A stretch of DNA of 54,024 bases, taken from the IMG/VR virus record IMGVR_UViG_3300045994_000081, positions 1 to 54,024 of that record; one strand, given 5' to 3'. The notes beneath the pieces were generated by a model, which saw only the letters and a program-made list of their open reading frames with translations, was not told where the DNA came from and did no database searches. Made by a program: the position numbers and the translations under genes. Source of the DNA: a virus. The number at the start of each line of letters is the position of its first letter. Within the stretch, counting starts at the first letter, position 1. Below are positions 6,099 to 35,931 of the stretch, piece by piece.

Positions 6099-8156
6099 TT
6101 AATCAAAATATTTTAATTCTTTTTCCAAAATCTTATGGGACTCCGCAATATAAACGTCATAGTTGATATTAGATGGTATTTCCTTAGGAAGCGTCATGAG
6201 AGGTACTGCACCGTCAGACTTCGGAACCTTCTTACCGCTGCTTGCGTAGATAATTACGTCCTCGTCCCCTTGCCCGTAATACCAGCGGATAGTCTTTCCA
6301 AGGAACTCCCCGTTCTTAACGCCTCCACCTTTCACTGTACGCACGTGAACGAAACGCTTTATATCCTTGCACGCCATAATCGTTGTTTCTATAGGTGTAC
6401 CCGCACGCAGAAACTCGACAACCGCGTCAGAGCATATAAGTCCCGCTGGATTTTTAGACAACCTGCTATTCCCGTTCGAGCCCTTCTCGCTATAAGCACC
6501 CTTCACCTTAAATGTACCGTCGGGCTTCAGCGCAATGTAGTTATTCACGTCCCTGCTGAAAAGACCCGTATATTTAGTCTCTTCCGTCACAAAGTCCGTA
6601 TCCTTCTCCCACTGTCTGACTATTGCGTCAACTTCGTGCTCGCGGTCTGCGTGTACCTTTACAACAATTCCGTCGGTGTTTGCGCTGACCACATTAAGTC
6701 CGCACAGTTCGAGACGTTCGATAAGCATCAACAGCGCAAGCTGACCGGTCACAGTTACCTGAATCAACAGGTCTGGGCTATATAGTACGCTGTACGGGGA
6801 ACCCAGCTTTCCGAACGACCCGTTAATGGTAATCTTTAGCGAATCCGCAATTACCTTCCAGAACTTTTCGCCCGCTTTGTCCCCTCGTTGCTTGCACGCT
6901 TTCGCTTCGTGTTTTGCGTGCAACCGCTTCGACACAATCTCGGCGTAAGCTTTCAGGAAGTTATACCCAAGGTGAACAGGGAATAAGTTTTGGTTCAGTA
7001 TTATTTTAGGATAGTAGGACTCAACGTCGATATCCTTTAAAACGTATCCGCCCGTCGCTCTGTGCTTGGCACTCTTCTCAGAGCTATGCAACCCGCCAAT
7101 TCCCATCACATAAGTAGACCCCGCGATCGGAACCTTCAACCCGCTTAACTCAGGGGGCATACCGACCGCACCGTCGTCGCTTACAACAAAGTCCGCATGT
7201 CTTACCACGTCAAGAACCCAGTTCATCAGTTCTGTGTTGTATTTCAAGAAGTGGGGGATTTTGTATTTGTAGCGCGTGCCTATGTCAATTTGCGGACGCT
7301 GGGGTCGCAACCCGTTCAGCTTACCTACAGCTTCGGACAGTACCGCTTCCGCAATCTGCGCATCTGACTTAGAACGCAGGTCAACCCCGTATTCCTTACT
7401 CATCTCTTCGCGAAGCGTAATCTGTTCCTTTAACTCCTCGCGAAGTGCTTCCGTGTTGTCTAAGTCGTTCAAGCAGTACCAGCGCACAATCGCAATCTGT
7501 TCAGGGCTCAACCATGTGCCAGGTGGAAAAGGCAGGTCTTGCATTCTTTTACAGTGCATCCGACCGCTGTATAGCTTTAGGCTCGCACTAAGGGGTGGCA
7601 CCTCGATCAGATCAATGTGATCAATGCCTTTTAGTGCTTTAACCTTGCGTCGCTTTAAAACGTCTGTCCCTCGCAATTGCTCAACAATTATTTCGTTCGT
7701 TGCTTGCACAAGATCCAGATTCGTTTTACCAGCAAGCGCCAGCGCGGTTATAGGCATATCGAAGATGATACCGTTAAAAGACACGATACAAAAGTTTCGG
7801 ATAATCCATTCCATCTTGGCGGTGTTTATGAATACGTCGGTTTCCTCGTGTCTCTCAAAGTAAACAATCTTTCCGGTCGTCTTACACTTAAACGCAGCAA
7901 GGAAGTAATTAGGATAGACTTCCGTATCGTAAATCATTTCAGAACGCTTATCGTTTGCAAGGCTAGAGCGCCATACGTCTGCAAGTTCCAAGTCCGTCAT
8001 CCGGGGGACGTCGAACGCTAACGCTTCTTCCAGTCCTGGCAGGTAATCAGGTGAAAGCCAGGTCGGTTCAGGTGGCGTGCATTTAGGCTTTTCAGCTTTC
8101 GCAGCTTTCACAACGGGCTGATCCCGCCAAAATATTCCAAGTGCGTCGGATCTCAC
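6099..8156 (-). CDS. Family B-type DNA polymerase with 3'-5' exonuclease
   Basis: A 685-residue replicative polymerase. The N-terminal proofreading domain has Exo I as D77-x-E79 (YDTEVYP), Exo II as N128-x3-D133 (FNGIIFD) and Exo III as Y-x3-D (YCLND). The polymerase domain has motif A as DVESYYP, motif B as K-x3-N-x-x-FG (KITINGSFG) and motif C as ANTDG, in which the usual YxDTD is altered to xNTDG; the invariant catalytic Asp remains. It is shorter than cellular family B enzymes. A GTG start at 8156 overlaps the clamp gene stop (GTGA), so polymerase and clamp are coupled. It should replicate the phage genome with the clamp encoded just upstream. Confidence 0.85.
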   Translation of the reverse strand: MRSDALGIFWRDQPVVKAAKAEKPKCTPPEPTWLSPDYLPGLEEALAFDVPRMTDLELADVWRSSLANDKRSEMIYDTEVYPNYFLAAFKCKTTGKIVYFERHEETDVFINTAKMEWIIRNFCIVSFNGIIFDMPITALALAGKTNLDLVQATNEIIVEQLRGTDVLKRRKVKALKGIDHIDLIEVPPLSASLKLYSGRMHCKRMQDLPFPPGTWLSPEQIAIVRWYCLNDLDNTEALREELKEQITLREEMSKEYGVDLRSKSDAQIAEAVLSEAVGKLNGLRPQRPQIDIGTRYKYKIPHFLKYNTELMNWVLDVVRHADFVVSDDGAVGMPPELSGLKVPIAGSTYVMGIGGLHSSEKSAKHRATGGYVLKDIDVESYYPKIILNQNLFPVHLGYNFLKAYAEIVSKRLHAKHEAKACKQRGDKAGEKFWKVIADSLKITINGSFGKLGSPYSVLYSPDLLIQVTVTGQLALLMLIERLELCGLNVVSANTDGIVVKVHADREHEVDAIVRQWEKDTDFVTEETKYTGLFSRDVNNYIALKPDGTFKVKGAYSEKGSNGNSRLSKNPAGLICSDAVVEFLRAGTPIETTIMACKDIKRFVHVRTVKGGGVKNGEFLGKTIRWYYGQGDEDVIIYASSGKKVPKSDGAVPLMTLPKEIPSNINYDVYIAESHKILEKELKYFD

Positions 8157-9106
8157 ATTCTCATCCCTACAATTGCACCGCGTAAATTTTCACCGTAAAA
8201 CATGCACGGGGACGGATAAGTGCTCCAGTCTATTTTCTGCGCAACACCTTTCAAGTTCATGAGCATTTCGATATTATAAATTCCGTCCCATTGAAGGTCT
8301 GGAATTTCGTAGCTTGCGCCTTCGTTTAGATCGTCATGCGTGCGCACCCAGCCTGAACCAATGACCACACGCCCGCTCTTGTCACAAAACCCTTTCAGCT
8401 TTTCAAGTGCGATAAACAACCGTTCGTCCATAAGAACCGGATGCGCTTCCGCACTTAGCACCCGCGCAAGGTCAGGCCAGTCTGTTGCGAATAGCTGGGT
8501 TCTTATCCAGCGTCCGTCGCTGTAATGGAATGTCACATTACCTTCGGTCATTTGGGCATGGGTAGGCGCTTCACCAATTCTTATCATTTCTTTTATTGCA
8601 GCGCGGGGAATATTGACAGGGTGCGGAAATGCAGCTCCGATCCAGTATTCTACCAGCATCACATTATTCGTTGCGAATGCACTCTTGTCTTTAATCAGAA
8701 CCCCATTGCTCCAAGGTCGAGACGCATCGTCCCCAACGAAAGGCCATAACACCTTAAACGCTTCCAGAATTCTAGCACCGTCAATCTCAACGTGTTCACC
8801 TTCAGGCTCAACGTGTGGGGTGTCGCCTTCAATACACTCTACAAACGCCTTAAACGCTCCAGAGCGTACCGACAAGCGTCCAGCGGGTGTCATGCTCAAC
8901 TGTACGGTTTCGTCGCAGTTGGAAATCGCTTTAACCATGGACTCAGCTTTCGGGGTGCATTCTATGTCCAGCGGTATCGGGCTGCACAGCGCCAGCATTC
9001 CGTTATAACCGCGTACGATACCCTTTTCAATGCGGAAGTGCGTAAGTGAAGCGACAAGGTCTTTACGGGCAACAGCGCCCTGAACGAACTTTAAGGCTGC
9101 AAGCAT
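8153..9106 (-). CDS. Sliding-clamp-like protein (beta clamp family)
   Basis: A 317-residue protein with the repeated clamp-fold pattern. Middle and C-terminal parts show the DnaN-like sequence SNGVLIKD...ATNNVMLVEYWIG, a domain-linking strand (FPHPVNIPRAAIKEMI) and TDWPDLARVL, close to the beta-clamp segment around FPDYRRVLP. It is shorter than bacterial DnaN (about 366 residues), so one domain is reduced. The ATG abuts the stop of the DpdA gene, and the stop overlaps the polymerase start. Its role is to tether the adjacent polymerase to DNA. I find no clamp-loader gene in the window, so the host loader may be used. Confidence 0.7.
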   Translation of the reverse strand: MLAALKFVQGAVARKDLVASLTHFRIEKGIVRGYNGMLALCSPIPLDIECTPKAESMVKAISNCDETVQLSMTPAGRLSVRSGAFKAFVECIEGDTPHVEPEGEHVEIDGARILEAFKVLWPFVGDDASRPWSNGVLIKDKSAFATNNVMLVEYWIGAAFPHPVNIPRAAIKEMIRIGEAPTHAQMTEGNVTFHYSDGRWIRTQLFATDWPDLARVLSAEAHPVLMDERLFIALEKLKGFCDKSGRVVIGSGWVRTHDDLNEGASYEIPDLQWDGIYNIEMLMNLKGVAQKIDWSTYPSPCMFYGENLRGAIVGMRM

Positions 9107-10033
9107 TTAAAATAGCTCCTGAACAATAGATTTGAATTTTGTGTAATCGTTCTGCTCGTTCATCATCTCGCCAAGACGACCGTAAGCCCATAGATTATAC
9201 ACCGCACGGGATTCGTAAACTGTAGACAGACGTTCGTAGTTGAAACCGTTGTCTTCCAGCATTTTCATGACGTAAGCTTTTTCTATATCTGTCAGCGTGC
9301 TCAAGTGCTGTCCCGCGTCGTGTCTGCTAGGACTTTTATCTGACACGGAAATCGGGCCGTGATCAGGTGTGATAATACCGCCGAACGCAGCGGTCTGAAT
9401 CCATGAGCTAGAGTCCACACTCCACCACGGATATTTTTCCATAATTGGAACCGCTGTAATACCGAACGCATGAACTTTAAGCCTAGGTCTGCCACTTCCG
9501 TCAACAAGATATTTATCCCACATTCTATCCAACCATGTGGACAATTGCGCACTGGACCTGCCTACCATCCCGCCCAAAGTAATGTAATCGTAATTGGCAA
9601 CGTACCATTCAAGATATCTTTCGTCTTCGCCCACATGGAAGCAAGGAAGCGGTTTCGCGCCAAGGTATTCCATGTGAAGCTGGTTCCGGTAAGTTTGCAG
9701 CGGGTCACCAATACCGTCCAAAACAGACGCCATCACAACCCCGTCTTCAACGCGCCAGATATCCAGGTTACGCTTTATATATTCACAATAAGTGGGTAAG
9801 TCAATTGTGACTCCTAGCGTATGCGCGGAGAACGCGCCTGAGTCTAGAAAGACCTTCGCGCCGTTTTCCCTCATATTGTCAACGTACCGTTGCGCGCCAA
9901 TATAGTGATAAGACTCGAGGATATTCGGGATGTTATTATTCACAATTTCGCACTCGCGCTCGTTGAGCTTAAGATAGCGATTTTGGTTCTTCATATAGTT
10001 ATTTGTATAGACTGCGGCGGTGTATAGGTTCAC
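9107..10033 (-). CDS. dpdA: DpdA-like 7-deazaguanine DNA transglycosylase
   Basis: A 308-residue TIM-barrel protein of the tRNA-guanine transglycosylase superfamily. Residues 63-68 (LDSGAF) match the base-binding DSGGF of TGT, residues 153-156 (LGGM) its substrate loop, and D207 in SVDSSSW is the likely nucleophile. The zinc-binding C-terminal part of tRNA enzymes is absent, as is usual for viral DpdA. In characterised phages DpdA exchanges guanine in DNA for a 7-deazaguanine base, shielding the genome from restriction. The preQ0 pathway genes lie immediately upstream in the operon. Start is GTG 10033 with AGGAGCAACTT upstream; an ATG start is not available at that place. The DpdA subfamily cannot be set by eye. 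Confidence 0.8.
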   Translation of the reverse strand: MNLYTAAVYTNNYMKNQNRYLKLNERECEIVNNNIPNILESYHYIGAQRYVDNMRENGAKVFLDSGAFSAHTLGVTIDLPTYCEYIKRNLDIWRVEDGVVMASVLDGIGDPLQTYRNQLHMEYLGAKPLPCFHVGEDERYLEWYVANYDYITLGGMVGRSSAQLSTWLDRMWDKYLVDGSGRPRLKVHAFGITAVPIMEKYPWWSVDSSSWIQTAAFGGIITPDHGPISVSDKSPSRHDAGQHLSTLTDIEKAYVMKMLEDNGFNYERLSTVYESRAVYNLWAYGRLGEMMNEQNDYTKFKSIVQELF

Positions 10034-10080
10034 AAGTTGCTCCTTTCATACGTTAGTATAACACCGCAATGAATAGACGA

Positions 10081-10112
10081 TAACGGACGTATTTAAGTTC
10101 ATACGTCCGTTA
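10081..10112 (-). terminator. Twelve-base-pair hairpin between FolE fusion and DpdA gene
   Basis: Perfect inverted repeat TAACGGACGTAT / ATACGTCCGTTA with an eight-base loop, between the end of the gpt-folE fusion and the dpdA start. On the minus strand it is followed by TCGTCTATTC, a poor U tract, so it may be an RNA stability or processing element or a partial terminator that lowers dpdA expression. Confidence 0.5.
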
Positions 10113-10118
10113 GATAGT

Positions 10119-11051
10119 TTACTTAGACAGACTTAAGAATTCAGACCGAGCTTGCGCGTCATCTTTAATCGCACCGCGAAGACTTGTGGTCACAGTGTGA
10201 TGGCCTTGTTGACAAACTCCTCGCGATTCCATGCACAGGTGACGAGCTTTTATAATTACGCCAACACCGATGGGATTCAGGTGTTCTACCAGCGCGTCTG
10301 CAATCTGGTCGGTCAGTCTTTCCTGCACTTGCAATCGGCGCGCGAACATGTCAGCAAGTCGAGACAGCTTGCTGAGTCCCACAATTTTCCCGTTCGGTAT
10401 GTAGGCGATAGACACGGTTCCAATAATAGGCGCGATGTGGTGTTCGCAATGGCTATAGATTGGGATGTCTTTTACCAGTACCATCTGATCATAATTTTCA
10501 GCACCGTCTTCGAATACCTTCAACAGCGTTTTCGCGTCTTTACCGTACCCGCTGAACCAGTGCTTCCAGGCTTTAACCACACGAGCAGGCGTCTCAGCTA
10601 GACCTTCCCGCTCTGGATTTTCACCTATGAACTGCATCATACGGACAACCGCGTCCGTCGCGCTTTCGTCTTCACCCTTGCTGGTGACTTCCCATGGAAA
10701 CACAATCCAGACGTTCTTGTAGACTTCGCTCGTAGTCTTATCAATAAGCGCAAAGAAAGGAATGCCAGGGTATTCATCGCAATACTTGCGCATGGTAGAA
10801 CCGCTGTCGATCAGGTCGTCTACAAAGATATCCGCGTCGAGAGGGTCTTCCGCCATCTTGCACTGGATCGCATAACGACTCAACGCATTACCCAGCAGAT
10901 AAGCGACCGGAATTCCGCCACGAGGTACGGCGTAAATCTTTATGATTGTCGTACCGCTTCCCGCACGGGTAGACAGTACATATTCTGAAATAGTTGATGC
11001 AAGACTTGCCGCAAGGGATACGACTTCTTTGTGGGTCAATTTCGTTTTCAT
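10119..11051 (-). CDS. folE: Phosphoribosyltransferase-GTP cyclohydrolase I fusion
   Basis: A 310-residue fusion. Residues 1-125 look like xanthine-guanine phosphoribosyltransferase: PRGG at 43-46, the PRPP-binding IFVDDLIDSGS at 75-85, and WIVFPWE at 115-121, which matches the WIEQPWD end of E. coli Gpt. Residues 130-310 are GTP cyclohydrolase I: SHCEHH at 200-205 and C273 give the zinc site (C202, H205, C273), followed by ESRGVCQQGHHTVTT. FolE makes dihydroneopterin triphosphate from GTP, the first step to preQ0. The N-terminal domain could convert free guanine to GMP. Domain calls are strong; substrate choice of the first domain is inferred. It starts nine bases after queD. Confidence 0.85.
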   Translation of the reverse strand: MKTKLTHKEVVSLAASLASTISEYVLSTRAGSGTTIIKIYAVPRGGIPVAYLLGNALSRYAIQCKMAEDPLDADIFVDDLIDSGSTMRKYCDEYPGIPFFALIDKTTSEVYKNVWIVFPWEVTSKGEDESATDAVVRMMQFIGENPEREGLAETPARVVKAWKHWFSGYGKDAKTLLKVFEDGAENYDQMVLVKDIPIYSHCEHHIAPIIGTVSIAYIPNGKIVGLSKLSRLADMFARRLQVQERLTDQIADALVEHLNPIGVGVIIKARHLCMESRGVCQQGHHTVTTSLRGAIKDDAQARSEFLSLSK

Positions 11052-11060
11052 TCGGTTTCC

Positions 11061-11555
11061 TTAAAAAGTATAAGACGCGCTGCATTTTGCAGTCTCGTCA
11101 ATTGTAACGCTTTCAAGCATGACGCCTGTTCCCGCCAACTGTTGCGGACCAATTACGTTCACAAGATACTGCGCCATATTTTCCGCAGTCGGGTTGAACG
11201 GCAGCCATACAATAGAATCGTTCGTATAGTCTTCCGGTCCAATGTCTTTCCGAACAGAAAACTCACGCGCCATGCAATCTGAAATCCGATCCATAACGTC
11301 ATCATCTTCCCATGCCAGGAACTTGTGATCCCAGTTGTCTTCTAACCACATACACAGGCGTTCCTTAACAACGCCAAAGTCAATAACGCGACCAACACTG
11401 TCAAGCTGTTTCCACTGGTCGTCAATACAGTCCGCAACGCAAGTGAAATGGATTCGATAGTTGTGGCCGTGTAAGTGTCTGCATTTATTTTCGTGACCTA
11501 CAACGCGGTGTCCTGCGCTTATGTCATGGTATCGTTCTACGCGGTGAGTTCCCAT
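11061..11555 (-). CDS. queD: 6-carboxy-tetrahydropterin synthase (QueD)
   Basis: A 164-residue member of the PTPS/QueD family. The QueD signature CxxxHGH is present (C25-R-H-L-H29-G-H31), giving zinc ligands with H16 and a catalytic Cys; DHKFL and the C-terminal ESVTIDET complete the usual pattern. It converts dihydroneopterin triphosphate to carboxytetrahydropterin, the second step of preQ0 synthesis. The ATG shares one base with the stop of the ArcS-like gene upstream. Confidence 0.9.
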   Translation of the reverse strand: MGTHRVERYHDISAGHRVVGHENKCRHLHGHNYRIHFTCVADCIDDQWKQLDSVGRVIDFGVVKERLCMWLEDNWDHKFLAWEDDDVMDRISDCMAREFSVRKDIGPEDYTNDSIVWLPFNPTAENMAQYLVNVIGPQQLAGTGVMLESVTIDETAKCSASYTF

Positions 11556-12271
11556 TACTTACTCCAATCTTTCAGCTGTTCAAGTACAGGATTAAACATT
11601 CGTGGCCATAGTTCAGGATACATAGAGAAGCCCGCGTTTACAAAACCTTCCGCCTGACTTTTAAGATACTGCTCTTTGGTAGGCAGAATTACAAAATCGG
11701 TTATCAGTCCCGCTTGTTTTGCCCAAGGTCCGACAACAGAAGCGACCTTATAATTTCGCATATTGTGTCTGAAATTAAAAAGGACGTATTTGTAAGGGTG
11801 CGCGGTAAGAAACTCTTTCATTCGTCTTATGCCTACTTGAATATAAAGATCGTCGTGTTTCTTTTCACCGTGCGCGTCATAGTTAAGATACGGGAATTGC
11901 CCTTCTGCTTCTATTGGGATAAGACCGCCATTTGAATGAATTACAAGGTCCGCGTATTTTTCAAAATGCTCAAGATATACTTTCCACTTTCTGCTGAGGC
12001 TATAAGGTCTTGTCGCGGTGCAAAGGCTGAACAGTACCACGTTATGCCCTTTGGTATGGCCCTGAATAACGGATTGAAACGCTCGCTCCATTACCTCGGA
12101 ATTCAGAACGTCAGGGTCGTGTCCTTGGATGCCAGAAAGCGGACCCCAGTCTGCTTCAGGCACAAGCAAAGACCCGCCCTGCAAAATAGTCTTATCCGCA
12201 CGACCTTTCGTACCTTGCCATTCTACTTTTCTCGTCTTGCCTCTGTAAGGGAATTCTCTGAACTGTTTCAT
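11555..12271 (-). CDS. ArcS/DUF5591-like protein of the deazaguanine cluster
   Basis: A 238-residue protein. Residues 83-93 (LCTATRPYSLS), 115-123 (GGLIPIEAE) and 126-132 (FPYLNYD) recall the motifs CSA-x-KPYS-x-S, LGLVP-x-E-x-E and YP-x-x-x-YD of the DUF5591 segment in archaeosine synthase ArcS. In archaea ArcS attaches lysine to preQ0 in tRNA on the way to archaeosine. Here, between queC and queD, it may act on preQ0 base or preQ0 in DNA, giving a derivative beyond dPreQ0. The family call comes from remembered motifs and needs a profile search. SD is GAGA upstream of ATG 12271. Confidence 0.55.
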   Translation of the reverse strand: MKQFREFPYRGKTRKVEWQGTKGRADKTILQGGSLLVPEADWGPLSGIQGHDPDVLNSEVMERAFQSVIQGHTKGHNVVLFSLCTATRPYSLSRKWKVYLEHFEKYADLVIHSNGGLIPIEAEGQFPYLNYDAHGEKKHDDLYIQVGIRRMKEFLTAHPYKYVLFNFRHNMRNYKVASVVGPWAKQAGLITDFVILPTKEQYLKSQAEGFVNAGFSMYPELWPRMFNPVLEQLKDWSK

Positions 12272-12287
12272 TTGAAGTTATCTCTTT

Positions 12288-13043
12288 CTAGATAGAATTG
12301 TAATTATCGGTAGAAGGCAACGCCATCAGTCCTTCGTTCACGGCACGCACTACAAGCGGATCAGGTAAACCTGCTTGTTCAAAGCCATCCGCACGAAGTA
12401 CGTTGGCATGATTCATATCCGTAGGCGGGTACTTTCCGTCATAGCTTGTATGCGTATAAGCAAGCGCGTCCCAGCATTGCCAGTCTTTATGCGCAAGTCT
12501 TACCGTAGACGCTTTGTCCAGATACATTAAAGGCGTCCAGATGTAAATATAGCCTTTTTCGTTGCGGTTGTAGCCCAACGCTTCGTTAATGTACTTTTCA
12601 GCAGCGTTTATAAACGTATCTCGACAGTCAGAATAATTTGCGTTATCCATCTGACAGACGCCCGTCACCAATGTGGTCATTCCCAAAGCCTCAGCGCGGT
12701 TTGCGGCAATGGTAAGAAACAGCGCGTTTCGCATTGGGACAAAAGTCAGTTCGCGTCGATTGCCAATTAGCGTGTCCATCTGAACCGCGTTCTCATACTG
12801 CTCAAGCGCGTTTTCGCTGGTAAGCGGTGACATCGATATTAAGCAATTGGGAACCTTGATAACTTCGTGGGTCACGCCTGCAAGCTCCGCAACCTTGGCA
12901 GCAGCTTTGATTTCAATAGCGTGTCGCTGCCCGTAATCAAAGGTAATTGCATGAACATTTAAGGCGCCAAAGCGTGCGCAAGCAAGGAAAAGACAGGTTG
13001 TAGAATCCTGTCCGCCTGAAAGTATTACAAGAGCTTTTTCCAT
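12288..13043 (-). CDS. queC: 7-cyano-7-deazaguanine synthase (QueC)
   Basis: A 251-residue PP-loop ATPase, with SGGQDS at residues 9-14. It makes preQ0 from 7-carboxy-7-deazaguanine, ATP and ammonia. Fold elements such as FDYGQRH and VPMRNALF match QueC. Near the C-terminus the four zinc Cys (CG-x-C-x-x-C type) are mostly missing: the stretch reads YPPTDMNHA then VLRADGFEQAGLPDP, so the structural zinc site is lost or rebuilt. The ATG overlaps the queE stop by one base. Not fused to a glutamine amidotransferase, unlike Gat-QueC of archaeosine-making phages. Confidence 0.9.
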   Translation of the reverse strand: MEKALVILSGGQDSTTCLFLACARFGALNVHAITFDYGQRHAIEIKAAAKVAELAGVTHEVIKVPNCLISMSPLTSENALEQYENAVQMDTLIGNRRELTFVPMRNALFLTIAANRAEALGMTTLVTGVCQMDNANYSDCRDTFINAAEKYINEALGYNRNEKGYIYIWTPLMYLDKASTVRLAHKDWQCWDALAYTHTSYDGKYPPTDMNHANVLRADGFEQAGLPDPLVVRAVNEGLMALPSTDNYNSI

Positions 13044-13765
13044 TATTCAACTCCTAATAGTTTGTGGATTTGCAATTGCAGCGTGTACCCGTGCGTCATA
13101 CACGAGTCAACAACCGCTTGCAGGTTTAGCGCGTTAAGTTGCGCGTCTTTATAGTCCGCGGGCTGCAAGTATATAGGACCAAAGAAATCCTCAGGGGGTC
13201 TTGCAACGCCACCCTCGGAGCAAGGGTGTTCAAGTACATATTCGGGAAGACCGTCGTCCGCAACGTCACCCGCGCTTAGGACGTACTTATACGCGGATAT
13301 CAAAGGTGCAAGCTGACCATTAATCTTTCCAGTCTTAGGACTGCACACTACGAATAGGGCATCCGAGCGGGAGAAGTCTAAGCTCGCCCATTCGTAAAAG
13401 GACAGGGCAGGGGGTGGAAATGTGCCGTTCGTTTCGATCTGTACGGTGTAATCGTTTGCAAGAAGCAACTTACAAAGCTCGGTTATATTCTGGCGGAACG
13501 GTTCACCGCCAGTTATGACCACAAGGCACGCAGCATTCCGCAGCATCCGCACACCTTGCAGAATATCAATTGGTGTCGCGTTATAGCGGTTCACAGTGTA
13601 TTCAGTATCGCATTCAGGACATTGTAGGTTGCACCCTGCAAGACGTACAAATACAGCGGGACGACCTGCAAAAGGACCTTCGCCCTGAATGGTATAAAAG
13701 ATGGAATGTACGCTAAGGACGCCAAACTCATTGTTGACGTGTTTTTCAGGAAGTTGGTTGTTCAT
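13043..13765 (-). CDS. queE: 7-carboxy-7-deazaguanine synthase (QueE, radical SAM)
   Basis: A 240-residue radical SAM enzyme. The cluster motif is C45-x3-C49-x2-C52 (CNLQCPEC), followed by DTEY; YTIQGEGPFAGRPAVFVRLAG upstream and TGGEP at the SAM-binding strand are typical of QueE. It rearranges carboxytetrahydropterin to 7-carboxy-7-deazaguanine, the third step to preQ0. First gene of a tight unit queE-queC-arcS-like-queD-folE, set off upstream by a hairpin at 13784-13805. Confidence 0.9.
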   Translation of the reverse strand: MNNQLPEKHVNNEFGVLSVHSIFYTIQGEGPFAGRPAVFVRLAGCNLQCPECDTEYTVNRYNATPIDILQGVRMLRNAACLVVITGGEPFRQNITELCKLLLANDYTVQIETNGTFPPPALSFYEWASLDFSRSDALFVVCSPKTGKINGQLAPLISAYKYVLSAGDVADDGLPEYVLEHPCSEGGVARPPEDFFGPIYLQPADYKDAQLNALNLQAVVDSCMTHGYTLQLQIHKLLGVE

Positions 13766-33982: not shown

Positions 33983-34468
33983 GTGCAACCCGATCCGCAA
34001 CTGCTAGACGAATGGACTAGAAAGTCAATGGCACAACCGTTGACCGATGGCGAGCGAGCATTGCGCGTCAAGTTTGTTCGCGAGTACCTTGTAGACTACG
34101 ATGCAAGGCTTGCAGCTATGCGGTGCGGGTTCATGTCTACCTTTGCTGAAGATTACGCGAATAAGTTCATGCTCGAACCTATTGTGCAACAGCTGATAAA
34201 AGAGTACGAGCATGACAGCGGGATAGATAACCAAGACGACCGCGATAAGCAGACGGTCAAGGCTACACTTAGACGTGAAATGCAGCAAGGTTCTCCAGCC
34301 AGCAGGGTGTCCGCTGCGAATACAATGGCGAAGCTTTTGGGAATGGAAGCGCCCGTCAAGACGGTTGCTGAAGTGACAATGAAATCAGCTGTTCAGTTTT
34401 ACTTACCGCACAACGGACGTGACCCATTGCCCGAAGGTTCCACGCTACAAACGCAGGAAGCTTTATAG
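33983..34468 (+). CDS. terS: Terminase small subunit
   Basis: A 161-residue protein with an N-terminal helix-turn-helix region (ERALRVKFVREYLVDYDARLAAMRCG) and a middle helical part typical of small terminases (KATLRREMQQG...RVSAANTMAKLLGMEAP). It recognises phage DNA to begin packaging. GTG start with AAAAGGACATAAC upstream. The large subunit follows with one base overlap. Confidence 0.8.
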   Translation: MQPDPQLLDEWTRKSMAQPLTDGERALRVKFVREYLVDYDARLAAMRCGFMSTFAEDYANKFMLEPIVQQLIKEYEHDSGIDNQDDRDKQTVKATLRREMQQGSPASRVSAANTMAKLLGMEAPVKTVAEVTMKSAVQFYLPHNGRDPLPEGSTLQTQEAL

Positions 34469-35931
34469 TGCGTATCGGACCTCAGTCAGGCCCACAAGAA
34501 CAGTTTTTAGCCGCAAGCGCAGACATCGCAATCTACGGGGGTGCGGCGGGTTCTGGTAAAACGTGGGCGGAATTGCTTGAACCTTTAAGGCATGTGACCA
34601 CGAATAAGGATTTCGCAGCGGTATTCTTTCGTCGTACAACCGTCCAGATCCGCAACGTAGGCGGCTTGTGGGACGCGTCCATGCGGTTGTATCCGCTGGT
34701 AGGCGCATCGCCCACCGCGCACGTTTTAGAGTGGCACTGGCCTGAAGGCGGTAAGGTCAAGATGGCGCACTTAGAACACGAGTCCACCGTGTTCGATTGG
34801 CAAGGGTCTGAAATACCGCTTATCCTGTTTGACGAGCTTACGCACTTCACCCAAAACCAGTTCTTCTACATGCTGTCACGAAACCGCTCAATGTGCGGTA
34901 TCAAGCCTTATGTCAGAGCGACCTGCAACCCTGACGCGGATAGCTGGGTTGCAAAGTTTATTGCGTGGTGGATAGACCAAGAAACCGGATTCCCGATACC
35001 CGAACGAAGCGGGATTGTGCGCTGGTTCATACGTCTAAACGACGTTGTGATATGGGGCGATTCGCGGGAAGAACTTGTGGTTAAATACGGGGACGCAGGC
35101 TTACCAGCGGAAGACCCTTCACAACCTCAGCCTAAGTCCGTCACCTTTGTACCTGGCAAGCTATCTGACAACCCTGCACTGATGAAAGCTGACCCTGGCT
35201 ACCTTGCAAACTTGAAGGCGCTACCAGTTGTAGAACAGGCGCGTCTATTGGGAGGTAACTGGAAGATAAGACCTGCGGCTGGTCTGTACTTTAAGAGATC
35301 GTGGTGTGAGATTGTTGACGTACTTCCGCATGACCTTGAAGTGGTTCGTTACTGGGACTTAGCTGCAACCGAGAAGACAGACAGCAATGACCCTGACTGG
35401 ACTGTGGGCGTCAAACTTGGAAAGAGTAGGGCGACGGGTGTATATTATGTGGCAGATGTGCGTCGAGACCGCTTGAGTCCTTTGGGCGTGGAACTGTTAA
35501 TTGAAAATACTGCAAGCCTGGACGATTACGCGGTGACAATAGGTATTCCGCAAGACCCAGGACAGGCAGGTAAGTCACAGTCTCAAGCATTTATAAGACG
35601 GATGGCAAAGTACACAATCCGCGCATTTCGAGAAGCTGGGCAGGGCGATAAGATTGTTCGTTTCGGTCCATTTAGTGCGCAAGCGCAAGGCGGGAACGTA
35701 AAGATATTGCGAGGAGCTTGGAACGAAGATTATTTTACTGCGCTTGAAGCATTCCCATCCAGCGCACACGACGACGATGTAGACGGTACGTCAGGCGCTT
35801 ACCGTATGCTGACAAACAGTAATACCGGACTTCTTGACTATTATAGGGAAGCGGCGGAGAAGGTTGAAAAAGAACGTGCAGCGTCCGCAGGTACAAACAA
35901 AGCGAGCGCATTTATTCAGGCTTTCAGTTAA
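34468..35931 (+). CDS. terL: Terminase large subunit
   Basis: A 487-residue packaging motor. Walker A is GGAAGSGKT at residues 24-32, Walker B is LILFDE near 118, and the C-terminal nuclease shows RYWDLAAT and HDDDVD, with the Asp residues expected for RNase H-fold cleavage. GTG start overlaps the terS stop by one base. Packaging mode cannot be set by eye. Confidence 0.9.
   Translation: MRIGPQSGPQEQFLAASADIAIYGGAAGSGKTWAELLEPLRHVTTNKDFAAVFFRRTTVQIRNVGGLWDASMRLYPLVGASPTAHVLEWHWPEGGKVKMAHLEHESTVFDWQGSEIPLILFDELTHFTQNQFFYMLSRNRSMCGIKPYVRATCNPDADSWVAKFIAWWIDQETGFPIPERSGIVRWFIRLNDVVIWGDSREELVVKYGDAGLPAEDPSQPQPKSVTFVPGKLSDNPALMKADPGYLANLKALPVVEQARLLGGNWKIRPAAGLYFKRSWCEIVDVLPHDLEVVRYWDLAATEKTDSNDPDWTVGVKLGKSRATGVYYVADVRRDRLSPLGVELLIENTASLDDYAVTIGIPQDPGQAGKSQSQAFIRRMAKYTIRAFREAGQGDKIVRFGPFSAQAQGGNVKILRGAWNEDYFTALEAFPSSAHDDDVDGTSGAYRMLTNSNTGLLDYYREAAEKVEKERAASAGTNKASAFIQAFS

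Follow-up and report, generated by a model that had tools for sequence, protein, structure and literature searches.

A fused phosphoribosyltransferase in a viral 7-deazaguanine operon

The stretch of viral DNA analysed here, referred to as the window, is IMG/VR record IMGVR_UViG_3300045994_000081 (54,024 bases). On its minus strand, at 9107-13765, lies a 7-deazaguanine DNA-modification block composed of queE, queC, an ArcS-core-like gene, queD, a gene in which a phosphoribosyltransferase (PRTase) is fused to the GTP cyclohydrolase I FolE, and dpdA, followed by clamp and DNA polymerase genes. The gene content and strand given in an initial annotation are borne out by open reading frames (ORFs) and profile matches. 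The genes are tightly packed, with intergenic spacings from queE to dpdA of -1, +16, -1, +9 and +85 bases by ORF coordinates, and the clamp ORF (8153-9106) stands directly after dpdA. The fusion itself (10119-11051, minus strand) is a protein of 310 amino acids, delimited by its ORF and profile matches, for which AlphaFold2 returned a model with a pLDDT of 96 and a pTM of 0.85.

Identity of the N-terminal domain

The N-terminal domain (residues 1-121; 10689-11051, minus strand) is described here as a PRTase resembling xanthine-guanine phosphoribosyltransferase (XGPRT) with its flexible loop deleted, an identity supported by profile comparison, Foldseek matches to its predicted fold, and conservation. 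Three motifs, all on the minus strand, lie where the initial annotation had located them: the pyrophosphate (PPi) loop PRGG at residues 43-46 (10914-10925), the phosphoribosyl pyrophosphate (PRPP)-binding motif IFVDDLIDSGST at residues 75-86 (10794-10829), and the base-binding motif WIVFPWE at residues 115-121 (10689-10709). Conservation was counted over 74 dereplicated fusions. In the PPi loop, R44 is kept in 64, G45 in 71 and G46 in 73 of them; in the PRPP loop, D78 and G84 are invariant, D79 is found in 73, and D82 and T86 in 72; in the base-binding motif, P119 is invariant, with W115 in 72 and W120 in 73. The lysine expected to contact the base, the counterpart of K115 in E. coli Gpt, is K105, kept in 66/74, so that both loops, together with the residues corresponding to D92, K115 and W134 of Gpt, are retained in 64-74 of the 74 proteins. 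Mean identity over 12 active-site columns reaches 97%, compared with 36% in the remaining columns of the domain, a level that none of 20,000 randomly drawn sets of 12 columns attained. Because the active-site columns are far more conserved than the remainder of the domain, the likeness to a PRTase is not attributable to chance.

Similarity detected with the single sequence is weak (E=1e-5 for the XPRT model NF006613; E=0.006 for XPRT in the PDB), and the domain scores 25 bits against the NF006613 equivalog cut-off of 138, below which a canonical-looking Gpt from a related operon, locus L128, also falls (78 bits). With a profile built from eight such domains, xanthine and xanthine-guanine PRTases are matched first (E=3e-14) and GpT and HPRT enzymes next. 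When the AlphaFold2 prediction for this domain (pLDDT 96.6) was compared by Foldseek, the top 24 matches were all XGPRT from E. coli or Yersinia, at TM-scores of approximately 0.6. The XGPRT-like assignment of the initial annotation is thus upheld by profile and predicted fold, including in the structural comparison that it had proposed against orotate and other PRTases: no orotate PRTase occurs among the 50 Foldseek matches listed, and as regards other PRTases, profile and fold match XGPRT first and HGPRT-type enzymes next, alongside a single Sulfolobus entry annotated as adenine PRTase. The domain thus shares with E. coli Gpt its fold, both loops and the counterparts of D92, K115 and W134, but where Gpt has 152 residues and a Ser-Tyr loop, it has about 120 residues, no such loop, and FolE attached.

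The FolE domain occupies residues 130-308 (10128-10664, minus strand), scoring 215 bits with TIGR00063 (cut-off 181.6), and the GTP_cyclohydroI profile matches residues 133-308 at E=1e-70. Its zinc and active-site residues C202, H204, H205, H271 and C273 are each present in all 74 fusions.

Distribution of the fusion

The initial annotation knew of no such fusion in described deazaguanine phages; a tblastn search with residues 1-124 recovered it from 33 isolate phage records, covering phages of Pseudomonas, Vibrio, Stenotrophomonas, Variovorax, Xanthomonas and Sphingomonas and including Nipunavirus, VpKK5 and MMDA13. Where the gene is annotated in these isolates, it is labelled only 'GTP cyclohydrolase', and the PRTase domain is unnamed in the records of NP1, PaMx25, Quinobequin-P09, VpKK5 and MMDA13. 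The fusion is un-annotated rather than unknown; its uniqueness to the window is ruled out by the 33 isolate records together with many IMG/VR contigs. The gene order of the window is repeated in the five isolate regions examined, and the five Queuovirinae just named share with it the order queE-queC-queD-fusion-dpdA-clamp-polymerase and the two-domain FolE. The window differs in combining a plain QueC with the ArcS-core-like gene, whereas NP1 has a QueC with a glutamine-amidotransferase (GAT) domain and MMDA13 a QueF-like gene.

A scan of viral contigs in IMG/VR, of which the best 80 of 341 relatives were used, was combined with four loci from a collection of bacterial and archaeal genomes (L170-L173), all four beside Que genes. 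In the resulting set of 84 loci, 81 encode the PRTase-FolE fusion as a single ORF. Among fusion loci with at least 5 kb on each side (n=37), QueD and QueE are present in every one and DpdA in 36. When loci were retrieved through DpdA (n=80), the fusion was present in 33; a further 43 had folE but, within the stretch retrieved, no PRTase, one carried gpt as a gene of its own, and three showed no folE. Judged from such gene content, the PRTase domain is common yet optional, and dispensable.

A single origin was rejected for the fusion: parsimony on the FolE tree calls for 13 changes of fusion state, but just 2 are forced at well-supported branches, so gains and losses may have been few or many. 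Several variant arrangements were observed. An intein-like insert (L106:8281-9738), starting with C and ending in GIAVHN before CEHH, splits the folE of a DpdA locus exactly at the FolE zinc-binding Cys. In L079 (7785-8939), PRTase and FolE are adjacent ORFs and the PRTase tail resembles the first FolE helix; this may be a once-fused gene that has since split, or the result of a frameshift. In two deazaguanine loci (L077:14335-14721 and L087:6716-7174), a loop-deleted PRTase is encoded by a gene of its own, about 5-6 kb away from a folE that is not fused.

Free-standing gpt genes in deazaguanine phages

In L128, a relative of the window operon, a canonical full-length Gpt with an SSYN loop is encoded between queD and folE. 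It stops right after FPWE, the motif shared with the end of the fusion domain, and folE starts about 40 bases on; therefore, the fusion joins two genes that are also found apart in the same slot. As a query, the L128 Gpt alone recovered just itself.

To guard against bait bias, E. coli Gpt was used to search 50,697 phage records, of which 16 matched. Eleven of these come from phages of Brevundimonas, Flavobacterium and Cellulophaga, of which the representatives tested carry FolE and QueE; the others are 2 short fragments that match E. coli gpt at 98% identity, 1 Salmonella contig, and 2 unannotated faecal scaffolds, the longer of which has neither FolE nor QueE. The annotated isolate phages matched thus belong to only three lineages, all with FolE and QueE in their tested members, against a background of 393 records with FolE (0.8% of the 50,697). 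A gpt gene lies directly upstream of folE in Flavobacterium phage immuto, directly after it in MaInes, next to queE in BUCT-ZZ01 and Callisto, and elsewhere in the FolE- and QueE-encoding genomes of CP220, F379 and phiST. The GenBank record of F379 labels its own gene 'purine phosphoribosyltransferase / queuosine biosynthesis protein'. In phiST and MaInes (L007:7941-8982 and L255:10641-12474), gpt adjoins or lies near deoxynucleoside monophosphate (dNMP) kinase and ribonucleotide reductase (RNR) genes.

Immuto and the Campylobacter Firehammervirus phages resemble the window in pairing an XGPRT-like PRTase, also with a short loop, with DpdA in a deazaguanine phage; they differ in that gpt is a separate gene and DpdA belongs to the PHROG 19058 subfamily, where the window has a fused gene and PHROG 887. 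The immuto-type DpdA homologue of the Campylobacter phages (44-45% identity) fits base exchange there. Taken across these genomes, gene neighbourhood and co-occurrence support a repeated tie between gpt and the deazaguanine pathway in unrelated phages.

Proposed guanine recycling and alternative roles

The identity of the domain, its conserved active site, its place in the operon, and the recurrence of gpt with the pathway in unrelated phages are established. In the chemistry of TGT and DpdA enzymes, one guanine is released per deazaguanine inserted, and one GTP is spent per preQ0. If the domain is active, with guanine as its substrate and DpdA as the source of that guanine, as we infer, the shortened XGPRT-type domain would convert DpdA-released guanine and PRPP into GMP; kinases, presumably those of the host, would bring GMP via GDP to GTP, the substrate of the FolE domain, through which the fusion would feed GTP into the preQ0 pathway. 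Removal of guanine would also draw the base exchange by DpdA forward. Such recycling, for which the genomic context gives good support, is considered the likeliest role of the PRTase domain, and a somewhat probable one. The 'self-contained loop' of the initial annotation was overstated, since GMP requires two more phosphorylations and no guanylate kinase was identified among the operon genes.

The scale of guanine release may be gauged from phage CAjan, whose DNA contains 70,628 dPreQ0 per million nucleotides (PMC6884629). At that level, an assumed burst of 100 in an assumed volume of 1 fL would release about 8e5 guanines, equivalent to 1.4 mM.

Several observations weigh against recycling. 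The flexible catalytic loop of Gpt, with its Ser-Tyr pair, is deleted in the window fusion and nearly all other fusions, the spacing from RGG to DD being mostly 20-33 residues compared with 48 in E. coli Gpt. This deletion is the chief reason why the domain is not filed as an XGPRT, and because of it PRTase activity cannot be taken for granted; with the active site otherwise kept and the catalytic lid gone, the domain presents a structural puzzle. Phages 9g, CAjan and Iggy share with the window the pathway, present in full, and the DpdA subfamily PHROG 887, but have a single-domain FolE in place of a two-domain one and no PRTase of this kind genome-wide. Lastly, no transglycosylase was detected in phiST, MaInes, BUCT-ZZ01 or Callisto with PHROG 887, PHROG 7068, Pfam TGT or the immuto DpdA, a weak negative given that the first three all miss immuto's annotated DpdA.

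The missing loop lends itself to another reading, in which the loop-less domain is a non-catalytic sensor: by binding PRPP, GMP or guanine it would control the FolE domain and match flux to purine supply. The loop is deleted in the fusion and in several free-standing copies as well, the domain is attached to the committed step of the pathway, and its ligand-binding residues are retained. However, conservation of the general-base Asp, and of the Lys and Trp that contact the base, is as strict as that of the PRPP loop, and the canonical Gpt in the same slot of L128 still bears its loop; a sensor role is judged rather unlikely. The domain might instead act on a 7-deazaguanine base, yielding a nucleotide that kinases and ribonucleotide reductase would turn into a modified dNTP or other product, a route suggested by the RNR and dNMP kinase genes near gpt in phiST and MaInes and by the transglycosylase negative in these two phages, obtained with profiles of limited reach. 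Yet DpdA, a user of the free base, is encoded in the window and in nearly all fusion loci. In HGPRT chemistry, moreover, the active-site Asp is thought to act on N7, which 7-deaza bases lack; because this Asp is retained, guanine is favoured over a 7-deaza base as substrate. In the 2019 work of Crippen on infection by Campylobacter phage, dADG phosphate was reportedly not seen. Nucleotide formation of this kind is judged less probable than a sensor. Least probable of all is general purine salvage for phage replication, unconnected to DpdA: although salvage is the ordinary job of Gpt-type enzymes, and two phages have RNR and kinase neighbours, hardly any Gpt-like genes occur outside deazaguanine phages across the 50,697 records searched, and the fusion partner is FolE rather than a replication enzyme.

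Other genes of the operon and genomic background

The remaining genes of the block, all on the minus strand, were assigned from profile matches. QueE (13043-13765) matches PHROG 2076 at E=3e-54, and QueC (12288-13043), which lacks a GAT domain, matches PF06508 at 1e-47 and TIGR00364 with 152.5 bits (cut-off 150.3). QueD (11061-11555), of the PTPS family, matches PF01242 at 6e-23 and PHROG 2389 at 5e-47. The DNA guanine transglycosylase DpdA (9107-10033) matches PHROG 887 at E=1e-87 and is 71% identical to DpdA of NP1; it is taken as the phage DpdA of PHROG 887 from its profile and its place in the preQ0 operon, adjoining folE, and it scores below the cut-off of the bacterial DpdA model NF041059 (15.7 vs 200 bits). 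In the same gene run, the DNA polymerase processivity factor, or clamp (8153-9106), matches PHROG 947 at E=1e-80. Promoter- and terminator-like sites are no more frequent than in shuffled sequences.

The ArcS-core-like protein (DUF5591; 11555-12271, minus strand) passes the core-domain cut-off of PF17884 (34.3 bits, cut-off 26, E=3e-8) and falls below the NCBIfam ArcS equivalog cut-offs (23-24 vs 440 and 600 bits), the core region alone matching. Its gene adjoins the plain queC, at a position where the close relative L010 has a GAT-QueC, and ArcS-like matches occur in just two other DpdA loci, L152 and L163, within larger ORFs. Its nearest homologue in an isolate is from Vibrio phage nt-1 (33%), the DNA of which contains dPreQ0, dADG and little dG+ (PMC6884629). 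By analogy with nt-1, the DNA of the window virus is predicted, without certainty, to carry dPreQ0, dADG or dG+.

The terminase of the window (34468-35931) is closest to those of Rhizobium phages (61%) and Methanoculleus viruses rather than Queuovirinae, whereas the genes for replication and modification are Nipunavirus-like; NP1 resembles the window in DpdA (71%) and in the fusion (64%). With a Rhizobium-phage-like terminase and a Nipunavirus-like DpdA and fusion, the genome looks mosaic.

Implications for phage DNA modification

No mention of the PRTase domain or of a recycling step was found in the papers examined; Cui 2023, Iyer 2013 and Crippen 2019 may hold prior mention. Dozens of phage 'GTP cyclohydrolases' are two-domain proteins, whose annotation would be corrected, and the role of the second domain is open to test in the isolated phages NP1, Quinobequin-P09 and VpKK5. 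More tentatively, phage 7-deazaguanine DNA modification could include guanine recycling as a general step that has gone unrecognised. XGPRT-type enzymes, some of them loop-deleted and fused to FolE, would return DpdA-expelled guanine to GTP, and unrelated phages would have acquired this step several times. If true, an enzyme dedicated to recycling would fill a gap in an anti-restriction pathway that has been widely studied, and would go some way towards explaining the ability of some phages to sustain heavy replacement of G in their DNA.

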